Of a DNA stretch of 64,000 nt, positions 27,188-60,837 are shown piece by piece. The translations under genes were made by a program, and so were the position numbers. Origin of the DNA: Gracilaria domingensis (taxonomy: Eukaryota; Rhodophyta; Florideophyceae; Gracilariales; Gracilariaceae). Where the stretch lies: assembly GCA_022539475.1 (NCBI GenBank), contig VCMS01000128.1, forward strand, positions 124,001 to 188,000, given 5' to 3'. The notes under the pieces were generated by a model. The model did not search any database, was not told the origin of the DNA, and saw only the letters and a program-made list of their open reading frames with translations. Numbering within the stretch: position 1 is the first letter of the stretch; each line of letters opens with the position of its first letter.

Positions 27188-27272
27188 GTACACACTTGCG
27201 ATATACAGCATTGCGAGCCACTTGCGAGATCTTCGAAAAATAACGCAACTGGATGAACACAAGTACACTGTA

Positions 27273-27395
27273 TAGGTTATTACACAGGGCCATACCGAGC
27301 GATAGTGGACCGAGACAGATGCTTGCCCGAGCGAAGCGAGGCCAAGCATGCCGAGGTCCACAATACCGCTCGGCTCAGTCCTGTGTAGTAACCTA
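27273..27395. repeat. 123-nt foldback
   Basis: Arms TAGGTTATTACACAGG and CCTGTGTAGTAACCTA (one mismatch) enclose CCGAGCG/CGCTCGG, GTGGACC/GGTCCAC and a terminal GCTTG..CAAGC loop. It could be a MITE or a structured RNA. Confidence 0.75.
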
Positions 27396-43320: not shown

Positions 43321-43352
<32 letters not shown>

Positions 43353-43381: not shown

Positions 43382-44811
43382 GGCGGCGGTCGCTGCGCGG
43401 CGCGCGGCGCGGGCGGCGTGGCGCTGCGGCGATGCGGCGGCGGCATCGCGGCAGGCCGACTCGCGAGCACACGCGCGCGCGCGGTGAGCGCTCGTGCGAC
43501 GGCGGCAGCACCAAGTCGGCGCGAACTCGCGCGCAACTGATAATATCATTATTATCAGGTACGTGTACACGCCATGCTTCAATTCGGCGCTCACGATTCC
43601 CATTACAATTGAAGAGGGCAGTACCGAAGGTAGACAACGACGGTATCATATGAAATGGATGTGCCACCTCACGCCTTTGCACACAGCCAGCCAAACCGGT
43701 CACTGTATCTCACATTGCTCGTCTGTGCAAACTACACCTGTTACTTCCATAGCGTTTCACGTCTCCTTGCGTTGGTCAAAAGCTTTTGAACGTCACAACC
43801 TTCTGGCCAAGTGCTTTTGTAAACATGTACTTTTGCATATTTTGACCAAAAGATCAACCACCAGCAGTCATCGAACAAAACTTTTCATCCAACTTGTACT
43901 ACAAGTATCTACGCCACTTACGCCATTTGCGTCCATATGATAACGCCACCAACCAAATGCGCCCAAATCTCTTCAACCGTTCCATGTCCTATCGTAGATG
44001 AAACCTGCTTACAACTTCAACCACGTTTGTGGAGAACAACACCGCACATTTTGTGTAGAAGAGGCTCTTCGATAACCCCAACCATGCTTCGAAGCATAGA
44101 GACAGCACAACGTTTTCAGAGAAATCGTCGTCGATGCGGAAAAGTAAACGTAATCCTAGCGATGAGGGAACAGCTCATGCATCCAACATTGCGTTGTGTG
44201 CGCAAGCAAAGGCAGAGATGTATCGTTGCTGTTGCGCTTGAAGCTATAATAGCAACGCGGCGAACGCTATCGATATGTTATGTCATGTCAAGTATCCAAT
44301 TTCTTGTGTGAGACCAAATGTCTCTATAGCTGTTGCGCCACGGGAGAGGGAGCTCGCTGTTTCTGTGGTGCATGACGTGATTCAAGTTGATGACACTGCT
44401 ATCGCCCTCCCGGTTACCGTCACCTCACTCTTGATGCCCCTGCGACGACGTTCTTCTCCTCGGCGGAGCAACACAGCCAATGCCGTAATACGCTAATAAC
44501 AAACGCTGACAAACGCCATCGCTCCCTCATCCGTCAAGAGCGGTTTAGGAGATGATGAGCAAGAGGCTGCCTAGAAGTCGTACGCCTTGAGTTTACTGCA
44601 GACCGTGCCAAGCGGTAAAAACACGCAAGTCGCGTGACGGAGATAATGCCCAACAACGAGCTACGGCAAGTGCTGCGTGACGCGCAGCGTCGGCGCGCGC
44701 CCGATCTAACCGGCGGGGAGGCAACACGCGTTGGGTTGCGGCGCCAACGATCACAACACGCGCTGTCGCGCTGTCGGCGCGCTCATACACGGCCGCGCCT
44801 TTGACCAACGC
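43382..44811. other. Intergenic region, no gene recognised
   Basis: About 1.4 kb upstream of the oxidase. Composition shifts from very GC-rich to intermediate and back. No motif-bearing frame was seen. Confidence 0.5.
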
Positions 44812-46425
44812 TCAGCCGCGCGACTGGCTCACGACCAGCGCCACCACGAGCACAAACACCTGCACCACGAGGCCGACCACGAAGCCGACGCAGAACGCGT
44901 ACAGCCGCTGCCGCCTCTTGAGGCCGCCCATCTTGGCGCAGCACCGCGTGGTGGCCAGCACGGCGCCCGCCCAGCACGGCAGCGCCGCCACGCCCGCCAG
45001 CACGCCCACCACGAAGCCGGCGCAGCCGTACGCGCCCACGTCCGCGCTCGACAGCGGCGCGGCCGTGTGCGCCGCGTCGCCGCCGGCCTCCACGTCGCGG
45101 CGCCGCGCGCGCTGCGCGCTCAGCAGCCGGCGGTCGGCGCTCGGCAGCCGCGACGGGTGCTTGGTGGGCGGCAGCGTGCGCCCGCGCGACGACGGCCGCC
45201 GCGAGCTGGAGTCGCCGTCGTGCTGGTAGCCGTCATCGCCCGCGTCGTCGTCCAGCGCAGAGCCCCACGCAGACGGCCAGCCGCCTGGCTGCTCGCGCCG
45301 CTTGTCGCCAGCGCGGCCGGCGCGCGGCGACGCCGGAGACGCCGGCGCGTCATTCCAGTTGGAGACGAAGGCGCGTGACGGCGTGAGCCCGCTGTCAGCT
45401 TTGCTGTCTGCTTTGCTCTTGTCGCCATTGCTCCAGCCGTCTTCTTCTTTCTCGGCGTCACCATTGATCTTGTCGTCGTCCTTGTCCTTGTCGGCCCTGT
45501 TCTTGTCAGCCTTGTTCTTGTCACTCTTGTCCTTGCCGGCCTTGTCCTTGCCGGCCTTGTCGCCGTCCCCGTCCGCAGGCGGTTCCGCCGGCGCCGACTG
45601 CTGCCACGCGTCTCGGTCGCGATCCTCTGGCAAGGACGTAGACCAGCCGGGCGCGCTCGGCTCACTGCGCTCGTCCGGCGCGAAGCTCCAGCCGTCCGGC
45701 GCCGGCCGCGTCTTGCGCGCGTTCTCGCGCCGTTGGGACGCGCCGCTGCTCGCGCGCAGCGACGACCAGCCGCGACCAAACTCTGGCGTGTCGTCGTCGC
45801 CGTCGTCAGGCGGCGCGGCGTGCGATATGTTGGGGCTGGACGGCGCAGACGAACTGCAGGTGCTGGCGCCGGCACTCGCGACAGCGCGCCACGCGTCGGC
45901 GGCGGCGCTGGCGCCGCGCTTCGCGCGCGGCTGGCGGCGGTCGTCGCGGTGACGCTCATCGCGGCGGCGCTCATCGCGCTGCCGTTCATCGCGGCGTCGC
46001 TCATCGCGGCGTCGCTCGTCGCGGCGTCGCTCGTCGCGGCGTCGCTCGTCGCGGCGTCGTTCGTCGCGGCGTCGCTCGTCACGTCGCTCCGTCGCGCGAT
46101 CGCGATCGCGATCGCGATCGCGATCGCGATGCGGCGCGTGCTGCGCGCGCCCCACGCGCTCCTCGCGGCGGTCGGGCGCGCGGTGGTGTCGCGGGCGGCA
46201 GCGCTCTGCGCGGCGGCGCTCGCGCTCGCGGCGCGAGCGGGCGTGCGCGTCGGAGGCGCGCGCGTCGGCGCCAAGCGCCGCGTGGCAACTAAGAAAGGGG
46301 TGCACGTCGGCGACGGCGGGCGCTTGTCGATGGTGCGTGAGCGAGCGGCACTTGCGCGTGCGGCGACTACTGTGATGGCGCGCGCGCGCCACCGGCGGCG
46401 GCGGCGTCACGACGGGCGCGGCGGC

Positions 46426-46465
<40 letters not shown>

Positions 46466-46626
46466 TGTGGGCACGGCTGCGCGCGCGCGCGGCGGTGCGC
46501 GTCGTGGCGACAGCGGCGCGCGGCGCAGCACGAGCGGCACGCGCGGCGCGGCGCGGACGGCGCGGCGGCGCGATCGGCGGCGGCGCACGCGCAGCAGCAC
46601 AGCTCGACGACGCAGCAGTGCGCCAT
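44812..46626 (-). CDS. Low-complexity protein with RRDE repeats and two C-terminal membrane segments
   Basis: The first ATG in the frame is at 46626, giving 604 residues beginning MAHCCVVELCCCACAAADR, a cysteine-rich start that may be acylated or metal-binding. Then come a Pro run, an RDRDRDRDRD stretch and about ten copies of a DERRR unit, an acidic and Asp/Lys repeat (KAGKDKAGKDKSDKNKADKN), and Trp-Ser segments (GWSSL, DGWSF, PGWST, GWPSAW). The C-terminus has two hydrophobic segments, GCAGFVVGVLAGVAALPCWAG and FCVGFVVGLVVQVFVLVVALVV, separated by a basic loop. It is probably a tail-anchored or hairpin membrane protein with a long disordered cytosolic part. No family is recognised. Start and absence of introns are uncertain. 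It lies 180 bp downstream of HisHF on the same strand. Confidence 0.6.
45955..46133. repeat. Tandem repeats of 15 bp (GTCGCGGCGTCGCTC-like) and 6 bp (GATCGC)
   Basis: About ten 15-bp units encode DERRR on the minus strand, followed by five to six GATCGC units at 46099-46132 encoding Arg-Asp dipeptides. Confidence 0.9.
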
Positions 46627-46807
46627 GTGGAGCTGCAGCAGCGGCGACGGCGGGCGGCGGGCGGGCGGCGGGCGGGCGGACGACGGCGGCGACGAGCTGC
46701 CGCGGCGAAGCGGCGGCGGCGGCGCGGCGGCGCGCTCGCGCGAGCGCGCAACGGATAGAGCGCGCAACGGACAGAGCGCGCGGCGGCGGCGAAGATGTTT
46801 GTCGCGG

Positions 46808-48664
46808 CTAGCAAGCTACAGTAGTGGAGCCATCGAGCGGCGCGGCGACGCGCGTGCGCGTGCCGTGCGCGAGCATGTGGCGCTTGACGGCGGCGATGGG
46901 CAGCTCGCGGCGGTGGAAGACGCCGGCGGCGAGCGCGGCCTCGGCGCCGGTGGCGTCGAACAGCTGCGTGAAGTGCTCGGCGCGGCCGGCGCCGGACGAC
47001 GCGATGAGCGGCAGGCGCACGGCGGCGCGCACCAGCGCCACCAGCGGCAGGTCGAAGCCGCTGCGCTGCCCGTCGCGGTCCATCGAGTTGAGCAGGATCT
47101 CGCCGGCGCCCAGCGCCTCGGCCGCGCGCGCCAGCGCCACCACGTCCAGCGCGCGCGCCTCGCGCCCGCCCTTCACCGTGCACTGGAACCACACGCGGCC
47201 GCCGCGGCCGTCGCCGGCCGCCACCGCCGTGGCGAACGGCGGCGGCGCCGCGCCGCGCGGCACGTACACGCGGCGCGGGTCCACCGACACCACCACCGCC
47301 TGCGCGCCGTACACGCGCGAGATGCGCTCGATGGCGGAGCGGCCGTCGGCGACGCCGCCGGCCGCCCAGAAGCGCTCGGCCGCGTACACGGCGTCGCTGC
47401 CCAGCGACACCTTGTCGGCGCCGGCGCGGAAGTACAGCGCCGCCACGTCCAGCGCCGAGTAGCGCACGCCGGCCGCGTCCGTGTAGTCGCGGATGCCGCC
47501 GCCCACGCACAGCGGCACGAACACGCGCCGCGACGCCTCGCGCAGCACGCGCGCCATCGCCGCCTCGCGCAGCGGCTCGCCGCGGAACGACGTGATGTTG
47601 AGGAACACAATCTCGTCCGCGCCCTCCTCAAAGTAGCGCTGCGCCAGCGCCGCCGGCTGCCCCAGGTTGCGCACCGCGCCCGACGCCGCGTCGCGCACGT
47701 CGTACTGCTCGCCCTTGGTGACCACCAGCTCGCCGTCGTCGTCCTCGCGCACGTCCAGGCACGCCACCACGCGCTTGGCCAGCCCCGTGTGCTGCGGCTG
47801 CGGCTGCGGCTGCGGCGGCTCGTCGTGCGGCGGCTCGTCGTGCGGCGGCTCGTCGTGCGGCGGCGCGCGCTCGTCGCGCACAAAGCGGCGCAGCAGGCGC
47901 AGCCCCAGCGCGCCCGACTTCTCCGGGTGGAACTGCGTGGCGCTGAGGTTGCCGCGCTGCAGCGCGGCCACGAACGGCTCGCCGTGCTCGGCCAGCGCCA
48001 GCGCCGTGCCCGCCGGCAGCGCGGCGCCCACGTCGGCCGGCACGCAGAACGAGTGCACAAAGTAGAAGCGGCCGCCGCCGCGGCGCAGCACGGACAGCGG
48101 CCGCGGCACGGCCACCGAGTTCCAGCCGATGTGCGGCACGGTGAGCGGCGGCGGCGCGCGCAGCCGCCGCACCGTGCCGGCGAACACGCCCAGCCCGGGC
48201 TCGCCGGGGCTCTCCTCGGACGCGTCGAACAGCGTGTGCAGCCCGAGGCAGATGCCCAGGAACGGGCGGTCGTCCAGGATGTACTGGCGCAGCGCGCCGT
48301 CGAAGCGGCGCGCGCGCAGGTTGGCCATGGCGGCGCCGAACGAGCCCACGCCCGGGAAGATGAGCCGCGCGGCGGAGCGGATGTCGTCGGCGCACGTGGC
48401 GTACCGCACGTCGGCGCCCAGCAGCTGCAGCGCGTTGTGCAGCGAGCGCACGTTGCCGGCGCCGTAGTCGAGCACCGTCACCACGGGGCGCGCGCCGCAC
48501 GCCACCGGCGCGGCGCGGCGGGGGCGGGAGAGGGAGCGGGGGCGGGAGAGGGAGCCGCAGCGGGAGCGGCAGCGGGAGCGGCCGCGCGGGAGGCGGGAGC
48601 ACGGCGGTGGCGCGGCGCGCAGCGGCGCGGGCGCGACGAAGGCGGCGGCGGGCGGCGGCGCCAT
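46808..48664 (-). CDS. HIS7: Imidazole glycerol phosphate synthase, bifunctional HisH-HisF, plastid-targeted
   Basis: The 618-residue protein starts at the ATG at 48664. Residues 1-55 are rich in Ala, Pro, Arg and Ser, like a transit peptide. The glutaminase domain (about 58-260) begins VTVLDYGAGNVRSLHNAL and has the nucleophile Cys139 in GICLGLH and the His246-x-Glu248 pair in FHPEKSG. A short linker contains three PPHDE repeats and a Gln-Pro run. The cyclase domain (about 285-600) has KRVVACLDV, FLNITSFR, VPLCVGGGIRDY, KVSLGSDAV, ILLNSMDRDG and IASSGAG. Glutamine-derived ammonia and PRFAR give imidazole glycerol phosphate and AICAR in histidine synthesis. Fusion of the two is the normal eukaryotic form. 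It is divergent from TPI with 440 bp between starts. Composition is extremely GC-rich. Confidence 0.96.
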   Translation of the reverse strand: MAPPPAAAFVAPAPLRAAPPPCSRLPRGRSRCRSRCGSLSRPRSLSRPRRAAPVACGARPVVTVLDYGAGNVRSLHNALQLLGADVRYATCADDIRSAARLIFPGVGSFGAAMANLRARRFDGALRQYILDDRPFLGICLGLHTLFDASEESPGEPGLGVFAGTVRRLRAPPPLTVPHIGWNSVAVPRPLSVLRRGGGRFYFVHSFCVPADVGAALPAGTALALAEHGEPFVAALQRGNLSATQFHPEKSGALGLRLLRRFVRDERAPPHDEPPHDEPPHDEPPQPQPQPQHTGLAKRVVACLDVREDDDGELVVTKGEQYDVRDAASGAVRNLGQPAALAQRYFEEGADEIVFLNITSFRGEPLREAAMARVLREASRRVFVPLCVGGGIRDYTDAAGVRYSALDVAALYFRAGADKVSLGSDAVYAAERFWAAGGVADGRSAIERISRVYGAQAVVVSVDPRRVYVPRGAAPPPFATAVAAGDGRGGRVWFQCTVKGGREARALDVVALARAAEALGAGEILLNSMDRDGQRSGFDLPLVALVRAAVRLPLIASSGAGRAEHFTQLFDATGAEAALAAGVFHRRELPIAAVKRHMLAHGTRTRVAAPLDGSTTVAC

Positions 48665-49103
48665 GGCGCGGCGGCGGCGGCGGGCGGTGGCGGTGGCGGT
48701 GGCGCGGCGGCGACGTCGCGGCGGCAGAGGCGCTGACTACTACGCGTGATCCGCGCCGCCAGCTCATCGCGCTCCAGCTCATCCGACGCGGCGCCGCTGT
48801 CAAGCTCTGCTGGCTGCCCACGGCCGCCACCTGTCCACGTCTGCCCGCGTCCCACGTGTGCGCGCTGCCCACGTGGGGGTGACGTACGCGCATGGCGCGC
48901 CGCGCGCCGCGCTGCGCGCTCGCCGCTGATCTCGCTCCAGCGCCGTCCATTTTGCGCCGTTTCAGAATACCTTCGCGGCGCTCGCCGCCACAGCCGCGCG
49001 CGCGCGCGCCGCGTCGGCATCCCGCGCGCGCCGTCCGCGCCGTCCGCACCTCCCCGCGCCACAGCCGCCCGCGCCGCGCCCTCCGCATCGCGCCCCGCCC
49101 GCC

Positions 49104-50060
49104 ATGTCGCCGCCCGCCTTCGTCACCTCCGCGCCGGCCGCGCTGCCGCCGGGCCTCAGCCACCTGGTCGCGCCGCCGTCGTCGTCGTGCGCGCGCGCCG
49201 CGCTGCCGCGCCGCATCGCCGCCGCCGCCGCGCGCCGCCGCGCGCCGCCGCCGCTCATGAGCGCCGGAGGCGGCGGCGGCCGCGGCCGCAAGTTCTTCGT
49301 GGGCGGCAACTGGAAGTGCAACCTGTCCAAGGCCGCCATCGCCGAGCTGGTGGCCGCCTTCAACGCCGCGCCGCCGCTGGACGCCGCGCGCGTGCAGGTC
49401 GCCGTCGCGCCGCCGGCCGTGTACCTCGACAGCACGCGCCAACAGCTGCGCGCCGACTTTGACACCTCGGCGCAGAACGCGTGGATCTCCAAGGGCGGCG
49501 CCTTCACGGGCGAGCTGGACGCCGCCATGGTCAAGGACGTGGGCGCGCAGTGGGTCATCCTGGGCCACTCGGAGCGCCGCCACATTGCGCAGCTCAGCGA
49601 GTCGGACCACACTATCGCCATGAAGGCCGCGTACGCGCTGCAGCACGCGCAGCTGGGCGTCATCTACTGCATTGGCGAGCTGCTGGACGAGCGCGAGAGC
49701 GGCCGCACCATTGCCGTGTGCGAGCGCCAGCTGCAGGCGCTCAGCGACGCCATCTCCGACTGGAGCCACGTCGTCATCGCGTACGAGCCCGTGTGGGCCA
49801 TTGGCACGGGCAAGGTCGCCACGCCCGAGCAGGCGGAGCAGGTGCACGAGGCGGTGCGTTCGTGGTTGGCGAGCAATGTGTCGCCGCAGGTGGCGGCCAG
49901 CACCAGGATTCTTTACGGCGGCAGCGTGTCGCCGGCCAACTGCCAGCAGCTGGCCAAGCAGCCCAACATTGACGGCTTTCTGGTGGGCGGCGCCAGCATG
50001 AAGCCGACCTTCTTGGAGATTGTCGACTCGTACAAGGCGGCGCTGGCGGAGGCCGTGTAG
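49104..50060 (+). CDS. TPI: Triosephosphate isomerase, probably plastid form
   Basis: A 318-residue protein begins at the ATG at 49104. About 60 residues (Ser/Ala/Pro/Arg-rich) precede the enzyme, which starts RKFFVGGNWKCN with Asn69 and Lys71, then catalytic His155 in VILGHSERR and Glu228 in AYEPVWAIGTG, and the phosphate-binding YGGSVSPANC and GFLVGGASM. It interconverts dihydroxyacetone phosphate and glyceraldehyde 3-phosphate. The leader suggests plastid targeting for the Calvin cycle. A second in-frame ATG at 49257 (MSAGGGGG) lies just before the mature enzyme and would yield a cytosolic form, an idea not proven here. No intron is seen. It is divergent from HisHF. Confidence 0.96.
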   Translation: MSPPAFVTSAPAALPPGLSHLVAPPSSSCARAALPRRIAAAAARRRAPPPLMSAGGGGGRGRKFFVGGNWKCNLSKAAIAELVAAFNAAPPLDAARVQVAVAPPAVYLDSTRQQLRADFDTSAQNAWISKGGAFTGELDAAMVKDVGAQWVILGHSERRHIAQLSESDHTIAMKAAYALQHAQLGVIYCIGELLDERESGRTIAVCERQLQALSDAISDWSHVVIAYEPVWAIGTGKVATPEQAEQVHEAVRSWLASNVSPQVAASTRILYGGSVSPANCQQLAKQPNIDGFLVGGASMKPTFLEIVDSYKAALAEAV

Positions 50061-50118
50061 CTTTTTTGTCTCAAACGTAAACGCAGGCGGAGGCGCGGCT
50101 GTTGCTGTGCGCCGCCTT

Positions 50119-50591
50119 CTACGCGCTCATCGGCCGCTTGCCCGCGTCGCCCGCGCCCTGCGACGCCGACGCCGCCAGCCCCGGCCGAATGTACAGCACG
50201 TTGTTGCAGCGGATCAGAATCTCGCCGAGCTCGCCGTCCATCGCGCCGTCCACCCACTCCTCCGCGTTTTCCAGCTGGACGTTCATGTAGCTGTCCACCG
50301 ACTTCAGGTAGCCTGTTGGGGGAGGCAATTGTGTCAGACGCGTGTTTTGTTTTGCTGATGCGCGCGCGCGTGCGTGTGGGTCAACAGTTTGCGTACCTCG
50401 ATACTCGAGCCCCCACTTGAGCTTGACGATCACGGGCTTGCCCGTGAGCGACAGCAGGAACGGCTTGGGGTTGATGTGCGACGATTTGCTGGCCTGTCGT
50501 GGGCGCGCAGCGCAGGGCGAAGGAGCTGTCAGCGGGCGATGTGTTGCGCGCGGGCGCGGCGCGGCGCGGCGCGGAGTGCGACACTTACCAT
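50119..50591 (-). CDS. SNRPF: Small nuclear ribonucleoprotein SmF, three exons
   Basis: Splicing 50591-50589, 50493-50397 and 50312-50119 gives a 97-residue protein beginning [19 protein letters not shown] and continuing [36 protein letters not shown] and [15 protein letters not shown]. These are the Sm1 and Sm2 motifs of SmF, part of the heptameric ring on spliceosomal snRNAs. The intron at 50494-50588 begins GTAAGT directly after the ATG, so exon 1 carries only the start codon of the coding sequence; its end is ACGACAG. The intron at 50313-50396 begins GTACGC and ends CAACAG; joining restores YRGYLKS. The C-terminus ([10 protein letters not shown]...) is family-variable. It is divergent from the TRAPPC14-like gene, with about 226 bp between start codons. 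Confidence 0.95.
50313..50396 (-). other. SmF intron 2
   Basis: 84 nt with GTACGC at the donor and CCCAACAG at the acceptor; splicing restores the conserved [10 protein letters not shown] sequence. Confidence 0.92.
50494..50588 (-). other. SmF intron 1, immediately after the start codon
   Basis: 95 nt with ATG|GTAAGT at the donor and ACGACAG|GCC at the acceptor. Splicing gives Met-Ala-Ser-Lys, a suitable N-terminus for SmF. Confidence 0.85.
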
Positions 50592-50817
50592 TGTCGACGG
50601 GGGGCCGCGGCGCCGGCGTGGAGCAACTCGGGCAGGGCGGGCGCGGGTGCGTCGGTGCTACCAAGGGTACCAAGTTGGCAAGTCTTCGACGTGCAGGCGG
50701 ATTTATCTACACGAGCGCTGTTTTCTTTTTTTCGGGACCAAAGTCGCGTCGCGCTCGCCAGTGGCGAGTCGCCGCGCCCCCCACTCCCAGAGCTGCGATG
50801 AACGCGCGGCGCGCACC

Positions 50818-52494
50818 ATGTCGTCCCGCCTCTCGCTCCACGACTGCACCGTCTCCATCCGCATCCCGACCCCGCCGTCGCCGCTGCCAGACTCGCCCGA
50901 GCAGATCGCGCTCCAATCGCTCGCCTCGACGCGCGACCAGACCGAGGCGTACATCGGCGAGACCATCTTCCTGCTGCTGACGCTGTCGCCCAAGGAGGCC
51001 ACCGCCAGCTCCGAGTCGCTCCGGCGCGCCATCGACACATGCGACGACCCGTACGTCTACATCGGCTCGCTGCCGCACGCCGCCAGCAACGAGAAGCCGT
51101 CGTGCCGGCTGCCCGTCATGCGCGAGACGGCGTGGCTGCCCTCCAAGCAGGACGGCTCGCCGGTCGTGTGCAAGGCGCTGTGGGTGCTCGTTCGCTCCCC
51201 GCCGCAGACCTCCGACCCGTCGCGCGCGCTCGCCATGGCCGGCCGCCAGAACATCGTGCTCTCCCTGCGCGAGATGACCGTGCCCAACATGCGCAACTCG
51301 AGCGTGTGGGCCACCATCGATCGCGCCAGCCGCCTGTTTGGCAAGACGGTGGCGCTGTATGCCACCAGGCACATCTTGCTGTCGATGCCCATTGAGATTA
51401 CGTGCCAGTGCCTCACCGTGTCGGGCAGTCTGGACAAGGCGTTCATCAGCGTCACGGCGCGAAATTCCACCAGCGACGCGTACATCTCGGTTGTGCCGCC
51501 GTACATCAACGCGTCGTCTTCCCGCGTGGTGCCCGAGGCGGCCGATGTGAACACGCACGGTCGGTCGGCCGCGCTGGACGGCCAGTACGACTTTGTGCTC
51601 TTGACCGATGAAGAAAGCGATGATGACAGCACGCTGTCGAGCATGCAGGCGGAGCAGGACCTGCTGCTCTCCAAGCAGCCAAGCGACTCGAGCGTCGAGG
51701 ACTACGGCCTTTTCATCCCGTCCTTCAATCACCTCGTTCGACACGCGGCGCGGCTCGGACCGCGCGAGGTGTTCAACTTTGTGTATCGCATCGTCGAAAA
51801 GCGCGCCGAGGACAGCTCGCAGTCCGAATTGCAGGATCGAAACAACAGACTTGCGCGACCGACACCGAAACCGCCCCGGCTTGCCATGGATCAGTGCATT
51901 CAAACGAGCGTGGCGGTGGCGTGGAATTGCTCGCCAGAACAGGAGGCCAATCTGGCTCTGTACGCCAAGGAGAGCGTCTCGAGGCAAATGTCGGCGGGGG
52001 GCGTTCTGGCGGCGGGGAAGCGAAGCACCGTGGCCGTGCAGATCACCAGCATCAACTGGCGTCCGCCAGCGTTGCTCAAGTCGATCGTGGTGTCGTTCAG
52101 TGGGCCCGAGAAGGTGGTTGTGGGCAGTCGCATAAATGTGACCATCAGCGTGTTGAACCAGACGGATCGCAACCTGCACAATGTGAAGGTGAAGGTGCAG
52201 CAGGACGGGCAGACGTACGAGTTGCTCGCGTTGCGCACTGTTGTGGTTGTAGGCGACATCCTGGCCGGGTGCGAGACCAGTCTGCAGGTGCCGTGTGTTG
52301 CGCTGAACACAGGGACGTTGAGCTTTGGTCAGGTGTGCGTCGTTGACGAGCGGCGGATGGAATGGACGTCACAGGGCACATTTTGCACCGTGGTGGAAGA
52401 CGAACCGGCTCCGAGATTGGCGGCGGAGGAGAGCGTGACGCAGACGGCTCACACCAGTTTAGAGCCAAAGGCTGCAGTTTCAGTAGCGGACTAA
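50818..52494 (+). CDS. Putative TRAPPC14/MAP11 (C7orf43)-like trafficking protein
   Basis: The 558-residue protein starts at the ATG at 50818 (MSSRLSLHDCTVSI). It has no signal peptide or membrane segment. Its pattern of beta-rich segments recalls the TRAPP accessory subunit TRAPPC14: AYIGETIFLLLTLS near the N-terminus (compare YLGE in that family), ITCQCLTVSGSLDKAFISV followed by a PPYINASSS segment, and a C-terminal beta sandwich (VVSFSGPEKVVVGSRINV, VLNQTDRNLHNVKVKV, VPCVALNTGTLSFG). An acidic Ser/Asp stretch lies near residues 262-300. A role in vesicle tethering is inferred from this remote resemblance, made from memory of the family, and needs profile support. The coding call is firm; the family is moderate. 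It pairs divergently with SmF. Confidence 0.6.
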   Translation: MSSRLSLHDCTVSIRIPTPPSPLPDSPEQIALQSLASTRDQTEAYIGETIFLLLTLSPKEATASSESLRRAIDTCDDPYVYIGSLPHAASNEKPSCRLPVMRETAWLPSKQDGSPVVCKALWVLVRSPPQTSDPSRALAMAGRQNIVLSLREMTVPNMRNSSVWATIDRASRLFGKTVALYATRHILLSMPIEITCQCLTVSGSLDKAFISVTARNSTSDAYISVVPPYINASSSRVVPEAADVNTHGRSAALDGQYDFVLLTDEESDDDSTLSSMQAEQDLLLSKQPSDSSVEDYGLFIPSFNHLVRHAARLGPREVFNFVYRIVEKRAEDSSQSELQDRNNRLARPTPKPPRLAMDQCIQTSVAVAWNCSPEQEANLALYAKESVSRQMSAGGVLAAGKRSTVAVQITSINWRPPALLKSIVVSFSGPEKVVVGSRINVTISVLNQTDRNLHNVKVKVQQDGQTYELLALRTVVVVGDILAGCETSLQVPCVALNTGTLSFGQVCVVDERRMEWTSQGTFCTVVEDEPAPRLAAEESVTQTAHTSLEPKAAVSVAD

Positions 52495-53361
52495 CTCGGT
52501 GTGTTGCGATTAACAACTAACTTTTGCTGTGATGAACAGAGGCTACCCCTGTGTTGCAACTCTTTGCTTTTGCTCCTCTTTTTTTTCTTCCTTTTCCTGC
52601 CCAACCTTTACTCGAGTGGTGCATGCAGACGGAGGGCAAGCAAGAGATGTTGTATAAAACAAAAAGTTGTAATCTCAAGTAGCTGTGGGGCGACCACGCT
52701 TTAGTTTGTGGGAGTACAATTCCAACTGCCAACCTCTTCAAGTCGACGGGACACATTGCTACTCTTCCGTGTGCCACGGTTCCGATGAGCTCTGCAACGA
52801 GGAGAATCTACGACAGCTGATTGAAGCAGAGATTGCGCACAAAATGAAGAGAAAGACTGGCCAGAGTGCGAGCACCTCGGCGAGGTGACCTCGGCGGCCG
52901 TCGTCAAGAGGTGATGTGCGGCGTGCCAGAGCGGGCTCCAGTGGCCGCACTGCGCATGTGCCAATGCAAAGTTACGTAGAAATACGCGATGGCAGTACAC
53001 GTATGATACGCGGAAAATGGCGCGCTTTGATCGATTTCAAAGTCGTTGCGAAGCAGCTTCCGCACTTCAAGCCGCCGGCTCGTTTGCCACCAGAGTGCGT
53101 CCAGAGCAGCCGCTTTCTTAAGACGCAGGCTCTCCACCCAAGCAACTGCCCCCCAAACGGTCAGCGCGAGAGCAAGCCGTCGCACGCAACCTCAATCCGC
53201 CAAACGGTCGTCGACGTTTTCTCGTTTCTGGCTGCCGCACCTCGCCGGCCGCAGCGCGCGAAAACCGCAGCGGCGTGAAGCGTCATTTCGCGCGCAGTCG
53301 CGCTCTTCAAACAGCACGAACGAAGATCGCCAGCTGCGCACGGTAAGCGTACGCGATCAGC
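52495..53361. other. Intergenic region, no gene recognised
   Basis: Contains a T/C-rich run at about 52558-52600 downstream of the previous gene. Short frames only; nothing with a motif. Confidence 0.5.
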
Positions 53362-54243
53362 ATGCCGCTCACGCTCGTCGAGCTGCTGCCGCTGCTCGTC
53401 GTCTTCCTCTGCCTGGCGGTGCTCGTCGCGCTGCTGCAGCGCGTGAGAAAGGCGCCGCCGCCAGCAGAGCCAGAGCCGGCTGCGCCCGCGCGCGAAGCCA
53501 CGCGCGCGAACGGCGGCGGCGTCGCAGCCGCGCCGCGGCGTCGGCGCGGCGGTCTGGCGCGCATGCGCCGCGCGGTGGAGCAGGCGGGCGGCGACGGCGG
53601 CGCGGCGGGCGACGCGGCGGCGGAGCGCGTCGCACGGAAGCGCGGCGGGAGGAAGAAGGAGGCGAAGCGCGAGGCGAAGCGCGAGGCGCAGCAGGCGCGA
53701 CAGGCGGCGCTGGAAAGACTGCGCGAGCGCGAGGCGCAGCAGGACGAGGAGCGGCGCGAGCAGGAGACGATGGAAGAAGAGCAGCGGCAGGAGGAAGAGG
53801 AGGCGCGGCGAAAGGAGGCCGAGGAGAAGGAGAAGAGGGAGCAGCAGGAGTACGAGGGCTGGCGCGGGCTGATTTCGGTGGCGGACGAGGGCGAGGAGGC
53901 GGCGCAGACGGAGCAGGAGAGCGCGGAGCTGCTGCAGCGGTTCTGCAACAGCGTGCGCGAGCAGAAGGTGGTGGTGCTGGAGGAGGTTGCGGCGCAGTTT
54001 GACATGCGCACGGAGGACGTGATTGACCGGCTGTCGCGGCTGGAGGAGGCGGGCGAACTGAGCGGGTTCTTTGACGACCGCGGCAAGTTCTTGTACGTGT
54101 CTAGGGAGGAGATGGAGCAGGTGGCTCGGTTTATTGAACGCAGGGGACGTATCAGCATTGAGGAGCTGGCGAGGGAGAGCAGTCGATTGCTTCGACTTGA
54201 CGCGGCGGCGGCGGCGACGACGACAATGACGGGCGCGTGTTAA
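53362..54243 (+). CDS. DDRGK1: DDRGK domain protein 1 (UFBP1), ER UFMylation adaptor
   Basis: The 293-residue protein begins MPLTLVELLPLLVVFLCLAV, a single N-terminal membrane segment (about 5-27) that anchors the family in the ER. A basic, low-complexity stretch follows, then a long Glu/Arg/Gln coiled coil (about 95-175) and a winged-helix PCI-like C-terminal domain with YEGWRGLISV, VVLEEVAAQFDMRTEDVIDRL and the eponymous FFDDRGKFLYVS (D238-K242). DDRGK1 helps the UFL1 ligase attach UFM1 to ER and ribosomal targets. Length and layout are usual for the family. No intron is seen. It converges on the small proline-rich gene at 54757. Confidence 0.95.
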   Translation: MPLTLVELLPLLVVFLCLAVLVALLQRVRKAPPPAEPEPAAPAREATRANGGGVAAAPRRRRGGLARMRRAVEQAGGDGGAAGDAAAERVARKRGGRKKEAKREAKREAQQARQAALERLREREAQQDEERREQETMEEEQRQEEEEARRKEAEEKEKREQQEYEGWRGLISVADEGEEAAQTEQESAELLQRFCNSVREQKVVVLEEVAAQFDMRTEDVIDRLSRLEEAGELSGFFDDRGKFLYVSREEMEQVARFIERRGRISIEELARESSRLLRLDAAAAATTTMTGAC

Positions 54244-54756
54244 TTAGAGCGGGAGCGGGCTTGGGGCTTTTGCGACGGCGTCGCGGGGGGGCAGTGGTGG
54301 CGGCTCGCGGTGTTTTGCGACCACCGGTGGTGCAGGGTTGTGCGGCGGGCGTGTGCACGGCCGACGGGGGTGGGCCTCTCGGAGGAGGTGTGTAGGAGGT
54401 TGCTACGCACAGTGGGCGAGGAGGCACAAACGGGTGCATTTGACAGCGGCGGCTACAAGCCAACAAGAGCGCGAGCGCAACGGGGACGGGGTGGGGCTAA
54501 TACAGGGGGGGCGGTGGGGGCGAAACGGTTCTGGTGGGGGAGGAGGCGTTGCAAAAGCGTGCTGTCTCTCTCTCTCTCTCTGTCTCTGTCTCTCTGTCTC
54601 TGTCTCTTTCTCTCTCCCTCGCTCTTCGTGTCGACAGCGACCAGACACTGGTTCGACCAGACAAGAACCAAAAAAAAAAAAAAAACTCACACACACGCAC
54701 GCGATGCGCGGAGCGGAGGGGGGGCGGGGGGGGGAAGGGGGGGGAAGGCGACGCGC
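54244..54756. other. Convergent spacer with CT-rich microsatellite and A-run
   Basis: A (CT)n/(TCTG)n tract occupies about 54564-54632, followed by a run of 15 A at about 54669-54684 and a short CA repeat. No gene is supported. Confidence 0.7.
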
Positions 54757-55308
54757 TCACACGGTGCCGGCCAGCGGCGCGCTCTTGGGCCGCACGAAGG
54801 TGGGCAGCGGCAGGCGCGCGGGCGGCGGACTGGCGGTCTCGAACGACAGGCCGGCAAACTTGTGCGCCACGACGGCGGCGCTGGCGGCGTCGGCGGCGGC
54901 GGCGGCGGCGACGACGGCGCGCACCGCGCGCGGCGCGCGCTCGGCGGACGGCGGCGACGCGGCGGCGGCGGCGGCGGCGCGCGTGGGCGTGGTGGTGGTG
55001 GTGGTGGCGGCGGCGCGCGCGCGGCGGATGTTGGCGGGGGTGAGCAGGCGCGAGGAGGAGGCGGGCGGCGACGGCGCGGAGGAGGCGGGCGACGCGGCGG
55101 AGGCGGGCGACGCGGCGGGCGCCGCCGCGTCCACAAAGTAGCCCGACGCGTCCCAGCGGCGCAGCGCGAAGGGCGGCGACGGCGGCGGCGCGACGACGGC
55201 CGGCGCGGGCGCGGCGCTGTGGTACGGCGCGAGCGCGTCGTTGACGACGGGCTCGGTGGCGCCGGGCACGAAGAAGGGGATGAGCGCGCGCGGCGCGGCG
55301 GAGCGCAT
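54757..55308 (-). CDS. Small Ala/Pro-rich protein with a C-terminal FAGLSF motif
   Basis: A 183-residue frame opens with an ATG at 55308: MRSAAPRALIPFFVPGATEP. It is dominated by Ala, Pro, Ser and Thr, with a SRLLTPANIRRARAA segment in the middle, and ends FAGLSFETASPPPARLPLP then TFVRPKSAPLAGTV. The C-terminal pattern (F/Y-A-G-x-x-F, several residues, S-P, L-P-x-P) resembles the short motif used by PNRC/EDC1-type decapping activators; this link is my inference from a short motif only. Third-position GC is extreme, as in neighbours. It is divergent from the SPRY gene. Coding status is supported by the ordered ends and the lack of stops, but GC-rich DNA gives long frames easily. Confidence 0.5.
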   Translation of the reverse strand: MRSAAPRALIPFFVPGATEPVVNDALAPYHSAAPAPAVVAPPPSPPFALRRWDASGYFVDAAAPAASPASAASPASSAPSPPASSSRLLTPANIRRARAAATTTTTTPTRAAAAAAASPPSAERAPRAVRAVVAAAAAADAASAAVVAHKFAGLSFETASPPPARLPLPTFVRPKSAPLAGTV

Positions 55309-56086
55309 GGCGGGGGCGGGAAGAAGAAGAGGCGGCGCGCGGCGTCGGTCGGCGCTGCGTGCGTGCGGGCGTGCGTGCGTGCGTTGCGGGGGGCGGGGCG
55401 GGGGGGGGGGGGGGAGGGAGGCGCGCGACTAAAAAGCGTAGGTGGCGCGGCCGCGGCGCGCGGCGCGCCGCCAGCGCGCGGGCGCGCGCGTGGAAGCTGC
55501 GCGAACGCGATGAGCTGGCCGAAACCAATTGCGGCCGCGCGCACTACACGCGTCACACGCGCGGGCGCCACGTCATCCGCACACGTGGCCAGCCGCGCGC
55601 GCTGGCCAGCCGCGCGCGCTGGCCAGCGGCGCGCGGCGCGCCGAATGACGCTCAGCGAGTGCCGATCACGCTCTTGATGCGAGCGAGTTGGCACGCTGCG
55701 CACGCGGCTGTCGCATATCGCTTCGACTCGCGCCTACAGCGCACTCTGCGCCAAGGCCGACAGGAGTCGAGAACCCCCGAGCACCTTCACGATAACGCAG
55801 TACTGGCAATCGGTCCCCAGCGTACTTCAGTACAGTAAAGGGGTCTGCCTATGATTTTGAATATAAAAGTGCACCATCACCGAAGCGGCGGCGCGCGGCG
55901 CGTTTGGGGCGCTGCGGCGGCGCGCCGCGCGCGCGCGCCCAATCGCGCGCGCACACGTGCGCGGCGCGCCGCGCCGAAGCGCCACGGCGCGCGCGCCGCG
56001 CGCTGGCGGCGCCGCGCGCCGCGCGCCGCTCTTATGGCGCCGCGCGCGCGCCGCGCGCGGCGGCGCAGCTCCGCCGCACGTCCGCC
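55309..56086. other. Divergent intergenic region with a TATA box
   Basis: Holds a G-run at about 55400-55415, repeated GGCCAGC(C/G)GCGCGC phrases near 55590-55635, and the TATA box at 55862-55869 for the SPRY gene. Confidence 0.6.
55862..55869 (+). promoter_or_regulatory. TATA box of the SPRY gene
   Basis: TATAAAAG stands out in otherwise GC-rich DNA, about 218 bp upstream of the ATG at 56087, and would place the transcript start near 55890. Confidence 0.65.
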
Positions 56087-56123
56087 ATGGGCAGCTCGTC
56101 GCGACTGCGCTTCCGCGCGCGCC

Positions 56124-56178
<55 letters not shown>

Positions 56179-56249
56179 GGAGGCGCCGCGCGGCGCGCGG
56201 CGCGAGCCGCCGCTGATAGGCGTGCAGCTGCGCGCGCTGCCGCGCGACG

Positions 56250-56298
<49 letters not shown>

Positions 56299-56939
56299 GC
56301 ACTGCGCGGCGTTCGACGCGTCCATCATGCACCGCGCGCTGGCGCCCGTGCTGCAGGACGTGCTGGTGCAGCGCGACGCGTCGGCCGCCGAGCTGGCCGC
56401 CACCTTCTCGCTGCCGCTGGGCTTTGTGGCCGCGCACTGGCTCACGTCGCGCTCGCCGCTCGTGGCGCCGCGCGCGCGCGCGCCGCCGTCCACCGCCGCC
56501 ACGGGCGGCGGCGGCGGCGAGCCGGACGCGCGCTTTTGCGCCGCGCTGTGCGACGGCCTGCTGGCGTTCCTGGCGCGGCGCCCGGAGCGCGCGCGCGGCG
56601 AGGCGCGCGCGCAGCCGGCGCGGCGGCCCAGCCGCGCGGCGCTGGAGCGGCGCTACGAGGCGGCGTGCGCGGCGGCGCAGGGCGCGCCGGCGCGCCACGC
56701 GCCGGCGGCGGCGGCGGCGGCGCGCGCGCGGCCGTGCGCGTTCGACGGCGCGCGCACGCACGCGCACATTGCGCTGCGGCGCGGCGGCGGCGAGGCGGCC
56801 AAGGCGGTGGACGGGCTGTACCGGCTGGCGCCGTTCGCGGCGCGCTTCGGCCGCGGCGCCAACTACTACGCCGAGCTACACGTGCGCGCGCTGCCGGCCG
56901 GCGGCATGCTGCTGGGCGCGTGCCGGCTGCGCGGCGACG

Positions 56940-56973
<34 letters not shown>

Positions 56974-57502
56974 GGCGACGGACGCGCTGCTGGGCGCGGA
57001 CGCGGCCGGGCTGGGCTTCCACAGCGACGGCTGGGTGGTGCACGGCGGGCGGTGGCGGCGCTACGACGGCGCGTTTGGCGAGGGCGACGTGGCCGCGCTG
57101 CTGTGCCGCGTCGACGGCGCGTGCGCATCGCGCGCGGCTGCGGCTGCGGCCGCGCGCGCGGCCGGCGGCGGCGCGGCGCTGTCGCGCGTGAGCTCGCGGC
57201 AGAGCGACAGCGACGGCGGCGGCGGCGGCGGCGGCGGCGACGCGCGGCGCTGCGGCTGCGCGCTGCGGCTGGTGGTGAACGGGCGCGGCGGCGGCGAGGC
57301 GGTGCGCGCGGCCGGCTGCCTGCTGGGCTGGCGCTTCGCGGCGTGCCTGTACCGCCGCGGGCAGGCGGTGCAGGCGCGCTGCTGCCCCGCCGACTGGCGC
57401 TTCTTTGCGGGCGCGGGCGCGGTGGACGCGGTGTGCGTGCGGCGCAAGGCGCGCGGCGGCGGCGGCGGCGGCGGCGGCTCGTGCTCGCGGCTGACGCCGT
57501 GA
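56087..57502 (+). CDS. SPRY-domain protein with Ala and Gly homopolymer tracts
   Basis: The 471-residue protein starts at the first ATG, 56087 (MGSSSRLRFRARP). A run of about 18 Ala and a run of about 15 Gly lie near the N-terminus, with more Gly runs later. The SPRY domain (about 225-460) is recognised from YYAELHVRALPAGGMLLGAC, DAAGLGFHSDGWVVHGGRW, GAFGEGDVAALLCRVD and the later LRLVVNGRGGG, with a Gly/Ser-rich insertion between. SPRY domains bind proteins in ubiquitin ligases, Ran-binding and chromatin complexes. There is a helical region before it (MHRALAPVLQDVLVQ). The partner cannot be named. Codons are almost all GC-ending. A TATA box lies upstream. It converges on the tRNA and DP gene. 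Confidence 0.8.
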
Positions 57503-57639
57503 GCTGCTCTTGCACAGGCGCGCAATGCAAGTAAATGGGAGGCGCGAGAGGATGCGTTTTTGTACTAGGCGTATGTAGAGCTGCCAACTGTGCGTGCGCA
57601 AAGCGGCGGCGCGGCGGCCGCGGCCGCCAGCGCGCGCAG

Positions 57640-57746
57640 GTCACATTAGCTCAGTCGGCAGAGCGCAGGTCTCATAATCGCGCGGGCCATCCTGAGGTCG
57701 CGAGTTCAAGTCGCCGCCGCCGGCGCGGAGCCCCTCGCATGTGGCT
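57640..57746 (+). tRNA. trnM-CAU: Elongator tRNA-Met (CAU) with two introns
   Basis: Removing 57677-57688 (12 nt, after position 37) and 57712-57733 (22 nt, in the T-arm after position 60) leaves a 73-nt tRNA. Acceptor GTCACAT pairs with ATGTGGC (one G-U); D-arm GCTC/GAGC; anticodon arm CAGG/CCTG with loop CTCATAA; T-arm GCGAG/CTCGC with loop TTCAAGT; discriminator T at 57746. The A box TAGCTCAGTCGG (57647) and a B-box-like GAGTTCAAGTC (57702) are present, and a TTTTT terminator follows at 57764. G1-C72 indicates elongator rather than initiator. Introns at 37/38 are usual for this tRNA in plants; introns in the T-arm are known mainly from red algae such as Cyanidioschyzon. The gene lies antisense to the end of the DP frame. 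Confidence 0.88.
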
Positions 57747-57926
57747 GCCCCCGGCGCGCCCTCTTTTTGCGGCGCCGCCGCCGCGAGGCGCACCGCCAGC
57801 GCCGCGTCGTTGATCAGCTGGAACGGCGCGCTCATCTGCAGCAGCAGCGTGCGCGCGTCGCGCGTCGCCTCGGCGCGCATCTGCGCGCCGCGCGCCACGC
57901 GCACCACCACGAACGGCGCGCGCACC

Positions 57927-58001
<75 letters not shown>

Positions 58002-58379
58002 GCGCCGCGCCGCCGCGCCGCCTCGCGCAGCGCCAGCAGCCGCGCGTGCGCCGCGCGCTTGCGCGCCAGCTGCGCGCGGCCCAGCGCCACCAGCCGCCGC
58101 AGCAGCACCACCCCCTCGCCGCCGCCGCCGCCGCCCACCCAGCGCAGCCGCGGCGCCGTCTCGATGAGCCGCAGCGCGCGCAGCACCTGCAGCGCGTCGT
58201 AGATGCGCCGCCGCGCGTTGCGCCGCGCGCGCGCGTCGTCGCCGCCGGCGTGCGCCGCCGCCAGCGCCGCCGCCAGCGAGTGCGCGCACGGCGCCGCCGC
58301 CGCCGCCGCGCGCGCCGACAGCAGCCGCTGGATCACGTGCAGCGTGATGCTGCGCAGGTTGCACCGCGCCGCGCGCGCC

Positions 58380-58425
<46 letters not shown>

Positions 58426-58504
58426 TGGCGCTGGCGCCGGCGTGGCGGTTGGCGCTGGTGCTCGTGGCCGCCGTCGTCGTCGTCGTCGTCGCGGTCGTCG
58501 TCAT
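57641..58504 (-). CDS. DP-type (E2F dimerisation partner) transcription factor
   Basis: The frame starts at the ATG at 58504 with a Thr/Ala stretch and a Gly run. The winged-helix domain follows (LRSITLHVIQRLLSA, then ARRNARRRIYDALQVLRALRLIE, the DP hallmark RRRxYDALxVL, then RLRWVG). The dimerisation region has a leucine-rich helix (LVALGRAQLARKRAAHARLLALREA), a 24-Gly run, then APFVVVRVARGAQ and LLLQMSAPFQLINDAAL, as in DP. With E2F it controls S-phase genes in the nucleus. The 3' end is odd: no stop occurs until 57641-57643, so the last 35 or so codons are the antisense of the tRNA-Met. Either the protein really ends there or a stop is supplied by a short intron or frameshift. It is divergent from the Ser/Pro-rich protein. 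Confidence 0.82.
57764..57768 (+). terminator. RNA polymerase III terminator of tRNA-Met
   Basis: TTTTT begins 18 bases after the tRNA discriminator, in DNA otherwise nearly free of T runs. Confidence 0.75.
57928..57998. repeat. (CCG)n trinucleotide tract
   Basis: About 23 uninterrupted CCG units, coding for a Gly run on the minus strand in the DP gene. Similar tracts occur at about 56125-56180, 56248-56295, 56940-56972 and 58380-58427 within the SPRY and DP genes. Confidence 0.9.
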
Positions 58505-59070
58505 CGCGCCGCTGCAAGCCGCCGCCGCTGCTGCGCCGCGCCCCCGCGCGGCCGCCGCCGCTTATGGGCGCGCGCGCGCGCGCGCACCACGTACTACGTC
58601 GCGCCGGCGCGCGCGCGCGCCGTGCGCCGTCATCGCGCGCGCTTTGGCGCTTGTTTTGTGTGCGCCACGCGCGCCTTCACGTGGCTCGCCGCCGCGCCCG
58701 TTGCGCGCGCGCAACGTCTGAGCCGCCGCCGCGTTGCGCCGCCAACGTGCGCGCTGCTTTTGGCCCGCGTTTGAGCTTGTTCACACTGCGCCGCCGCGCT
58801 GTCAGGTCTCACACTCTCACCGGAGGTCGCCAAAGCAGTTGCGCCTTCCCGTCCCATCTCCGCCAGATTACAGCCCGCACCACGCATCCGCTGCACATGA
58901 TGCGCATGATGCATGTGCTCGTGCCGTCGCATCTGCCACCACCGCTCCGCGCTCTCATTCCCGCCGGCTCTCCGCACGAGCCGCCGCCGTTCCCGCCGCG
59001 CCTATAAAGAGCATGGCGCCGCAGCCGCCCAACGCCGCCATCGCCTCTGCGACGCACACCCTCGCCCGCC
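58505..59070. other. Divergent promoter region between DP and the Ser/Pro-rich gene
   Basis: Very GC-rich near DP, becoming less so to the right. Holds a TATA box for the plus-strand gene at 59003. Confidence 0.55.
59003..59010 (+). promoter_or_regulatory. TATA box of the Ser/Pro-rich secreted protein
   Basis: TATAAAGA lies 68 bp upstream of the ATG at 59071, fitting a short 5' leader. Confidence 0.65.
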
Positions 59071-60837
59071 ATGGCGCCCCCGACCCCGCTCACCCTCATC
59101 CTCATGCTCGTCTCCCCGCTGCTCACGCACTCCCTCGCCGACCCACACCCGCACTACCGCATTCACCCGCCCCGCCCGCTGCTGCGACCCGTCGCCTACC
59201 CGCCGCATGCCGCCCCGCACAAACAGCCGCACCCAACTCCCACCCCGACCCCATCGTCGCCGCCGCCGAAAACGCCGCCGAAAACAAACAACCGCGGACT
59301 TCGCGACACCATCTCCCTGCCCGGCTCACAGCCACAGCTGCCCGCAGAACCGTCCACCTCGTCGTCAGATCCAGATCGCACCGCCTCCTCCGACGCCCCG
59401 CCGCCGCCCAACCTGCTGGCCGCCTGCCCCGCCATCTGCCTCGGCCTGCAACAAGCGCACGCAATGTGCGCGCTCTACGCCCGCCAACAATGCGAGGTGC
59501 AACCCTGTTCACAGCCGCCATCGTCGTCGCCGTCCTTGTCGGGCGGCCTGTTCGGCGCGCTCTTCGCGTCGCGTCAGCTCGTGCCCGCCCAGTTCATGTG
59601 CGCCGACAGGCCAAGCCCCACCATCACGCCCACCGTCACGCCGTCGCCCTCTGCAAGTGCCTCAATGTCCACCACGCCCTCGCCCTCGCCGTCATTGTCT
59701 TCCGCTCCCATACGCGTGCCGTTTGGCCTTCCGACTCCGTCTGAGACTCTGTCGCCGAGCCCCAGTCCCTCCTCGTCTGCAGACGCGTCAACGCCGCCCT
59801 CTGCGCCCCGATCATCGCCGTCGGTTTCGTCCTCTCCGAGCGTGTCTGTGGATGCGTCTATTTCAGCCACACCGTCAATGTCGCCGTCGCCCAGCGATTC
59901 TGCATCGCCGTGGCACACTTCTACGGCAACACTGTCGCCCACGGCTTCAGCTTCAGTGTCACCGTCGCCCAGCGAATCTACATTGCCGTCACCTAGCGAG
60001 TTTGTGTCGCCGTGGCCCACTATTACGGCAACACCGTCGCCCACGGCTTCAGCTTCAGTGTCACCGTCGCCCAGCGAATCTACATTGCCGTCACCTAGCG
60101 ATTTTGTGTCGCCGTGGCCCACTATTACGGCAACACCGTCGCCCACGGCTTCAGCTTCAGTGTCACCGTCGCCTAGCGAATCTACATTGCCGTCACCCAG
60201 CGAGTTTGTGTCGCCGTGGCCCACTATTACAGCAACACCGTCGCCCACGGCTTCAGCTTCAGTCTCGCCGTCGCCCACAGCTTCAGTGTCACTGTCGCCC
60301 TCAGCTTCAGCCTCACCATCGCCTTCAGCTTCAGTGTCGCCACCGCCCTCAGCTTCAGCCTCACCATCGCCTTCAGCTTCAGTGTCGCCACCGCCCTCAG
60401 CTTCAGCCTCACCATCGCCCTCAGCTTCAATGTCGCCATCGCCCTCAGCTTCAATGTCGCCATCGGCCACTGCTTCAGTGTCCGCCTCACCATCACCTCC
60501 CGGGAATGAAGAGCCTTGCACACTGGACGTCGATGATAGTCAGCCCATTGTGAGGACCAAGTGCAGGTGTGCACGAGGGCGCGGAAATTCTCGCACTGTG
60601 CCGACGAGGGTGACCGGACCAGAACAATGCCTGAGTGGATGTTTGCGCGACAACAACGCCCTCATCACAGAATGTGAAGCTGCTGGAGAAGGCGATGACA
60701 ATGGCTCTCGGTTTGATGATTTCTTGGCGTTGCTTGATGACTTTGCAGACGGCCCCCTCAATCAATGTTGTGAGCAAACTTGTGATGGCCAACTGACGAA
60801 TCCAAGTGGTCCAAACTTTCAATGTACAATTCCTTAG
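59071..60837 (+). CDS. Secreted Ser/Pro-rich (mucin or HRGP-like) protein
   Basis: The 588-residue protein opens MAPPTPLTLILMLVSPLLTH, a signal peptide. A Pro/His/Thr-rich segment leads to a small Cys-containing module (LLAACPAICLGLQQAHAMC..CEVQPC), then about 300 residues of Ser-Pro repeats including three and a half copies of a 34-residue unit (TASASVSPSPSESTLPSPSE..VSPWPTIT) and shorter SASxSPSP units. The C-terminus is a second Cys-rich module (EEPCTLDVDD, RTKCRCARG, QCLSGCLRD, NQCCEQTCDG) ending FQCTIP. Ser-Pro blocks are typical sites of O-glycosylation or hydroxyproline arabinosylation in algal wall and sheath proteins. A wall or mucilage role is inferred. No membrane anchor is seen. 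No intron is seen. Confidence 0.85.
   Translation: MAPPTPLTLILMLVSPLLTHSLADPHPHYRIHPPRPLLRPVAYPPHAAPHKQPHPTPTPTPSSPPPKTPPKTNNRGLRDTISLPGSQPQLPAEPSTSSSDPDRTASSDAPPPPNLLAACPAICLGLQQAHAMCALYARQQCEVQPCSQPPSSSPSLSGGLFGALFASRQLVPAQFMCADRPSPTITPTVTPSPSASASMSTTPSPSPSLSSAPIRVPFGLPTPSETLSPSPSPSSSADASTPPSAPRSSPSVSSSPSVSVDASISATPSMSPSPSDSASPWHTSTATLSPTASASVSPSPSESTLPSPSEFVSPWPTITATPSPTASASVSPSPSESTLPSPSDFVSPWPTITATPSPTASASVSPSPSESTLPSPSEFVSPWPTITATPSPTASASVSPSPTASVSLSPSASASPSPSASVSPPPSASASPSPSASVSPPPSASASPSPSASMSPSPSASMSPSATASVSASPSPPGNEEPCTLDVDDSQPIVRTKCRCARGRGNSRTVPTRVTGPEQCLSGCLRDNNALITECEAAGEGDDNGSRFDDFLALLDDFADGPLNQCCEQTCDGQLTNPSGPNFQCTIP
59926..60282 (+). repeat. 102-bp tandem repeat, about 3.5 copies
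   Basis: Units start at 59926, 60028, 60130 and 60232, exactly 102 bp apart, differing by a few bases. They encode the 34-residue Ser/Pro unit. Shorter 36-60 bp units follow to about 60480. Confidence 0.93.

Follow-up and report, generated by a model that had tools for sequence, protein, structure and literature searches.

Introns in the T arm of tRNA genes have precedents in C. merolae and in nucleomorphs (PMC9602550; PMC4090602). In the red alga C. merolae, over 62% of nuclear tRNA genes carry introns, and tRNA-Ile(UAU) is interrupted in its D, anticodon and T arms by introns that form hBHBh' motifs (PMC9602550). In the tRNA-Gly(CCC) of the same alga, the motif at the 55/56 intron is relaxed, so the strict motif is not always found there (PMC3978253), and C. 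merolae is reported to lack a recognisable Sen15 (PMC4090602). Position 59/60 serves as a junction in permuted tRNAs of C. merolae and Thermofilum (PMC3978253) and is listed for archaeal introns (PMC4090602). In the nucleomorph of Guillardia theta, tRNAs bear non-canonically placed insertions of 3-24 nt, some of which lie in the T arm; RT-PCR demonstrated that 3-nt T-arm introns are removed, and three introns interrupt the elongator tRNA-Met (PMC4090602). Where one of many synonymous eukaryotic tRNA genes contains a short D- or T-arm insertion, that copy is supposed to be a pseudogene (PMC4090602). How tRNA introns at odd positions arise is an unsettled question, and no T-arm tRNA intron reported for a multicellular red alga was found in a partial literature search, mostly without subscription papers. 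Here, we describe a nuclear elongator tRNA-Met gene of Gracilaria domingensis that carries a T-loop insertion and is most likely a recently inactivated spare copy.

An interrupted tRNA-Met gene and its intact paralog

The window, meaning the whole stretch of 64,000 nucleotides that was analysed (C128:124001-188000), holds at 57640-57746 on the plus strand an elongator tRNA-Met(CAT) gene with two interruptions, one of 12 nt at 37/38 and one of 22 nt in the T loop. Exon 1 (57640..57676, tRNA positions 1-37) contains the A box (about 57647-57658) and is the same as in a paralog on contig C178; it is followed at the canonical 37/38 position by the 12-nt GC-rich intron ATCGCGCGGGCC (57677..57688), whose G at -3 could form an A-I pair with C32, as judged by eye. 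Exon 2 (57689..57710, positions 38-59) comprises the anticodon 3' strand, the T-stem 5' strand and the T loop up to G59, and the 22-nt GC-rich insertion at 59/60, either an inactivating insertion or a candidate T-arm intron, occupies 57711..57732. Exon 3 (57733..57746, positions 60-73) supplies the T-stem 3' strand, the acceptor 3' strand and the discriminator T. The last three bases of a B-box-like stretch (about 57703-57713) are the first three of the insertion. Eighteen nucleotides past the exon end lies TTTTT (57764..57768, plus strand), a likely Pol III terminator, which is one of two T5 runs on the plus strand between 54 and 60 kb, where 0.9% of plus-strand positions have a T5 within the next 25 nt; the A box and terminator to which the first-pass annotation had pointed are real, the latter being locally rare.

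All features of a eukaryotic elongator tRNA-Met gene with a 37/38 intron are present, namely the CAT anticodon, the A box, the cloverleaf and the intron after position 37. The stems pair as had been claimed, with the exception of 31-39, which the sequence gives as T-T in both the window gene and the C178 copy; a T-T at 31-39 is normal for eukaryotic elongator tRNA-Met. Standard tools pass over the locus: ARAGORN finds no tRNA anywhere in the window, no Rfam family reaches its gathering score there, and a relaxed Rfam scan of 57500-57900 gives the tRNA family 20.5 bits, under the cut-off of 29. A genome-specific model, for which 15 nuclear tRNAs of the G. domingensis genome including the spliced tRNA-Met served as input, scores the window gene at 35.9 bits and the C178 gene at 68.2.

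The genome was searched as a 77.9-Mb assembly of 680 contigs, in which a pattern search returned two places; the spliced sequence, used as a DNA query, matched four, namely two full genes (window and C178) and two 37-nt 5' pieces (C428 and C294). The C178 paralog (30589-30674, minus strand) has a different, 13-nt intron at 37/38, ATCACTAGCAGCA, and a T arm without insertion. When the insertion is removed between G59 and C60, the canonical tRNA is restored and the exons of the two genes are identical at 73 of 73 positions, which rules out a chance resemblance to a tRNA and bears out both the tRNA-Met identity and the two interruptions proposed in the first-pass annotation. The T-arm interruption itself had been put at 57712-57733; the paralog moves it one base leftward, because the rightward placement would yield T60 instead of C60, and the position is unambiguous, as the flanking bases permit no shift in either direction. 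Aligned in this way, the insertion falls on 59/60, a known and recurrent ectopic junction position. The intact C178 gene also rules out that the window gene is the sole elongator tRNA-Met of the genome.

A recent block duplication with C178 is ruled out, since the flanks share no similarity (local alignment scores of 9 and 8 for the 200-nt flanks, with shuffle means of 9.95 and 8.29). The surroundings of the two full genes have 82% GC in the window and 46% on C178, and the 37/38 introns have diverged, ATCGCGCGGGCC having drifted toward local composition. Because the exons stayed unchanged while intron and flanks diverged, we infer from the sequences that both copies were under selection through most of their separate history. 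Any inactivation must for the same reason be very recent: 0 changes at 73 sites place the divergence since such an event below about 4% (rule of three). A third locus derived from elongator tRNA-Met (L035/L036, near position 1500 of C428 and C294) is already decayed, with its 5' 37 nt kept (95% identity) and its 3' half gone save an acceptor-like ATGTGGC followed by T4. It was also aligned as a gene with further T-arm introns, a reading that was rejected, the genome-specific model finding no tRNA at this locus at E up to 10. Between the C428 and C294 loci 3037 of 3037 bases agree, and one of the two may be an assembly duplicate.

The window gene sits in a GC island (about 42000-60000; 62-82% GC in 2-kb windows) flanked by stretches of 38-56% GC, with many CCG words and several ORFs with Ala/Gly/Arg runs. 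The words CCGCCGCCG and CGGCGGCGG, overlaps counted, occur 105 times in 56-60 kb and not at all in 1-40 kb or 60-64 kb, in agreement with the earlier remark that the insertion resembles the CCG-rich DNA around it. The insertion is a non-tandem 22-mer with one other site in the window within 3 mismatches (56163-56184, 3 mismatches), and exact matches to it in the rest of the window reach at most 13 nt on the plus and 16 nt on the minus strand; a copy from nearby sequence was considered and rejected, such matches being unconvincing in DNA so rich in CCG words.

tRNA introns and splicing endonuclease subunits in the genome

A partial survey, drawn from the best 63 of 3349 family candidates and from three D-arm patterns, yielded 53 nuclear tRNA genes at distinct places, some of which may be assembly duplicates (e.g., C369/C370, with the same flanks). 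The genome-specific model scored 58 of 109 loci, the omitted ones being organelle loci, repeat fetches of the same places, the larger regions L053-L056, and L105-L109, which contain no tRNA according to ARAGORN, and the 53 genes are what is left of 56 matches after removal of two weak secondary matches (L016:245 and L093:121) and the 8.5-bit L072. One D-arm pattern had 28 nuclear matches, of which 13 were fetched (nine tRNA genes, one 5' fragment and three non-tRNA sequences), 4 were already known and 11 were left unread; a fourth pattern gave 212 matches against 137 in the control, and neither of the 2 that were read is a tRNA. No nuclear initiator tRNA-Met, tRNA-His, tRNA-Asp or tRNA-Pro, among others, was seen in this partial survey.

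Introns at 37/38 were recognised by eye in 7 of the 53 genes, Val(TAC), Tyr, both Met, Ser(CGA), Ser(TGA) and Leu(CAA), and a T-arm insertion in a single one, the window gene; several genes with ectopic introns, as in C. merolae, were thus not found in this partial survey. Each of the four Sen subunits is represented by its family in the genome, with scores over the respective cut-offs: Sen15 (53.1 bits, E 2.3e-12), the Sen54 N-terminal family (74.4 bits) and two PF01974 proteins, which are candidates for Sen2 and Sen34. The presence of Sen15 is weak evidence, since TSEN15 makes no contact with RNA in the human structure.

Three further observations were made along the way. L095 (C5:155900-156050) is the 5' fragment of a Leu-type tRNA that ends soon past the D arm and in which ARAGORN finds no tRNA. 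L073 (C54:198378-198451, minus strand) is a tRNA-Val(AAC) copy with GC-rich flanks whose acceptor stem, by eye, has a C3-A70 mismatch that the sister copies lack; GC drift may have worn down this copy as well. The mitochondrion-like contig C679 carries at about 25375-28474 five terminal copies of a unit of tRNA-Arg, tRNA-Tyr and tRNA-Ser, spaced by 659 bases, which is either a tandem array or an assembly artefact.

Inactivated copy or spliced T-arm intron

The first-pass annotation had suggested a search for bulge-helix-bulge structure at the junctions, and for the T-arm insertion the strict form is absent: the prediction shows neither two 3-nt bulges nor a 4-bp helix, as hBHBh' would have, the helix being 3 bp long and the 5' bulge missing. 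What is predicted is a relaxed, hBH-like T arm, in which the stem is kept, a 3-nt bulge CC|C60 places the 3' cut where it usually lies, and the central helix consists of the three pairs U54-G, U55-A and C56-G, one of them a G-U, with pair probabilities of 0.66-0.68. This resembles the relaxed hBH arrangement of ordinary nuclear tRNA introns (PMC3978253). With a threshold of three pairs, chosen after the fold had been seen, the hBH-like form is the minimum-energy fold for 58 of 11,654 local 22-mers placed at the same site (overlapping, hence not independent), for 28 of 10,000 shuffles of the insertion and for 4 of 1,398 local 22-mers with CCGCCG, or 0.3-0.5% of controls overall. Bare 3-base complementarity at the right place is common, being found in 538 of 11,678 local (4.6%) and 1,377 of 20,000 shuffled (6.9%) 22-mers.

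The 37/38 intron of the window gene appears prone to misfolding. With the T-arm insertion left out, ATCGCGCGGGCC shifts the balance by 8.6 kcal/mol toward a fold that lacks the D and anticodon arms, compared with 0.3 for the C178 intron (D stem unenforced; 8.7 and 0.4 when enforced), and the same gap is 0 and 0.3 in the intron-containing Val(TAC) and Tyr tRNAs of the genome. Local 12-mers in the same place give a mean of 3.75 kcal/mol, and 22 of 400 are as bad as the window intron.

The window gene is accordingly best read as a spare elongator tRNA-Met copy that was probably inactivated a short time ago. A second, dispersed nuclear copy, whose long functional life is indicated indirectly by exons that stayed unchanged next to a diverged intron and flanks, would have gained the 22-nt GC/CCG-type insertion between G59 and C60 within the CCG-rich island of about 80% GC. 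Pol III would probably still transcribe it, as the A box, the B-box-like stretch and T5 are kept, but the transcript would most likely lack the T-loop/D-loop elbow by which the tRNA splicing endonuclease recognises its substrate; if the elbow is not formed, the transcript would not be matured and would be lost to decay, and the intact C178 copy with its ordinary 37/38 intron would supply the tRNA. The insertion interrupts a conserved arm in one among several synonymous copies, as inactivation would have it, and the intact paralog, the uniqueness of the insertion among 53 genes, the four Sen families, the misfold-prone ATCGCGCGGGCC and the decayed third locus point the same way. The exon decay expected of a tRNA pseudogene is absent, with 0 of 73 differences from the intact copy, and the untouched exons, the ectopic site at 59/60, the rare hBH-like fold and the T5 kept in T-poor DNA all argue against inactivation.

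These last features are the ones that would be explained if the 22 nt were a genuine T-arm intron at 59/60, spliced from the RNA by way of a relaxed hBH-like motif, a reading we consider rather unlikely. Sen would then cut at G59|U and C|C60, the ligated tRNA would equal the C178 product and, if C. merolae is a guide, removal of the T-arm intron would precede that of the 37/38 intron. The exact 73/73 product, the known 59/60 junctions of archaeal tRNAs and of permuted C. merolae tRNAs, a minimum-energy fold that few controls reach and the kept Pol III signals are consistent with splicing, and precedents exist in C. merolae tRNA-Ile(UAU) and tRNA-Gly(CCC) and in the elongator tRNA-Met of the G. 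theta nucleomorph (PMC9602550; PMC3978253; PMC4090602). The central helix, however, has three pairs including a G-U rather than four, the 5' cut would fall outside a 3-nt bulge, and the rarity of the fold depends on a 3-bp threshold set post hoc while bare 3-pair complementarity abounds; no other T-arm insertion occurs among the 53 genes, all four Sen families are at hand and the 37/38 intron tends to misfold. The intact C178 gene disfavours an intron further, as it supplies one half of the sign that the first-pass annotation had itself named against one, another intact gene with the window copy unexpressed. Its proposal of a T-arm intron has lost ground through the synonym, the singularity of the insertion, the Sen families and the lack of a strict motif, and has gained the predicted relaxed motif. 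The fuller version, in which a spliced 59/60 intron was newly born from GC-rich, triplet-like DNA in a multicellular-looking red alga with four Sen families while an insertion-free paralog persists, we hold to be unlikely.

Two other explanations deserve less weight than an inactivating insertion. An assembly or sequencing artefact in an otherwise intact gene is very improbable: the surrounding DNA, at 82% GC and with many triplet arrays, is hard to sequence, and the assembly has duplicated blocks such as C294/C428, but the insertion is non-tandem, has a single match with 3 mismatches in the window and is bordered by perfect exons on both sides. A separate function of the unspliced RNA, such as that of a Pol III transcript antisense to a tail-to-tail overlapping E2F/DP-like gene, is hardly to be expected. 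A 287-aa ORF with an E2F/DP winged-helix domain (26.4 bits) does occupy 57641..58504 on the minus strand, its frame running antisense through the tRNA unit, and the insertion alters the position of its stop; without the insertion, the stop falls within the T loop, and the insertion may thus have lengthened the C-terminus of the E2F/DP-like ORF by about 29 residues. Antisense strands of tRNA genes, however, often read open by chance.

Comparison with known systems

A gene pair with identical exons, with and without an insertion at 59/60, offers a clean natural test of whether an ordinary-looking eukaryotic Sen complex removes a T-loop insertion or whether the insertion kills the copy. If the copy is killed, tRNA predictions with an arm insertion and a synonym should default to pseudogene; if the insertion were spliced, an ectopic tRNA intron would have been caught just past its birth, with the insertion-free paralog still present.

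Like the eukaryotic genes supposed to be pseudogenes (PMC4090602), the window gene is the one copy with an interrupted T arm beside a normal other; unlike them, its exons show no decay at all, and the searches turned up just two full copies. With the nucleomorph tRNAs of G. theta it shares a T-arm insertion within the 3-24 nt size range (PMC4090602), but those belong to a reduced endosymbiont genome, whereas the window gene, with its 22-nt insertion, lies in a full nuclear genome that also holds an intact synonym. The earlier statement that red algae are known to have T-arm introns is borne out by C. merolae tRNA-Ile(UAU) (PMC9602550). The window gene differs from the C. merolae system in its relaxed motif with a 3-bp helix, in a genome where 1 of the 53 tRNA genes surveyed is ectopically interrupted and in the presence of Sen15, and it is like C. 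merolae tRNA-Ile(UAU) in being a red-algal nuclear tRNA gene interrupted both at 37/38 and in the T loop.
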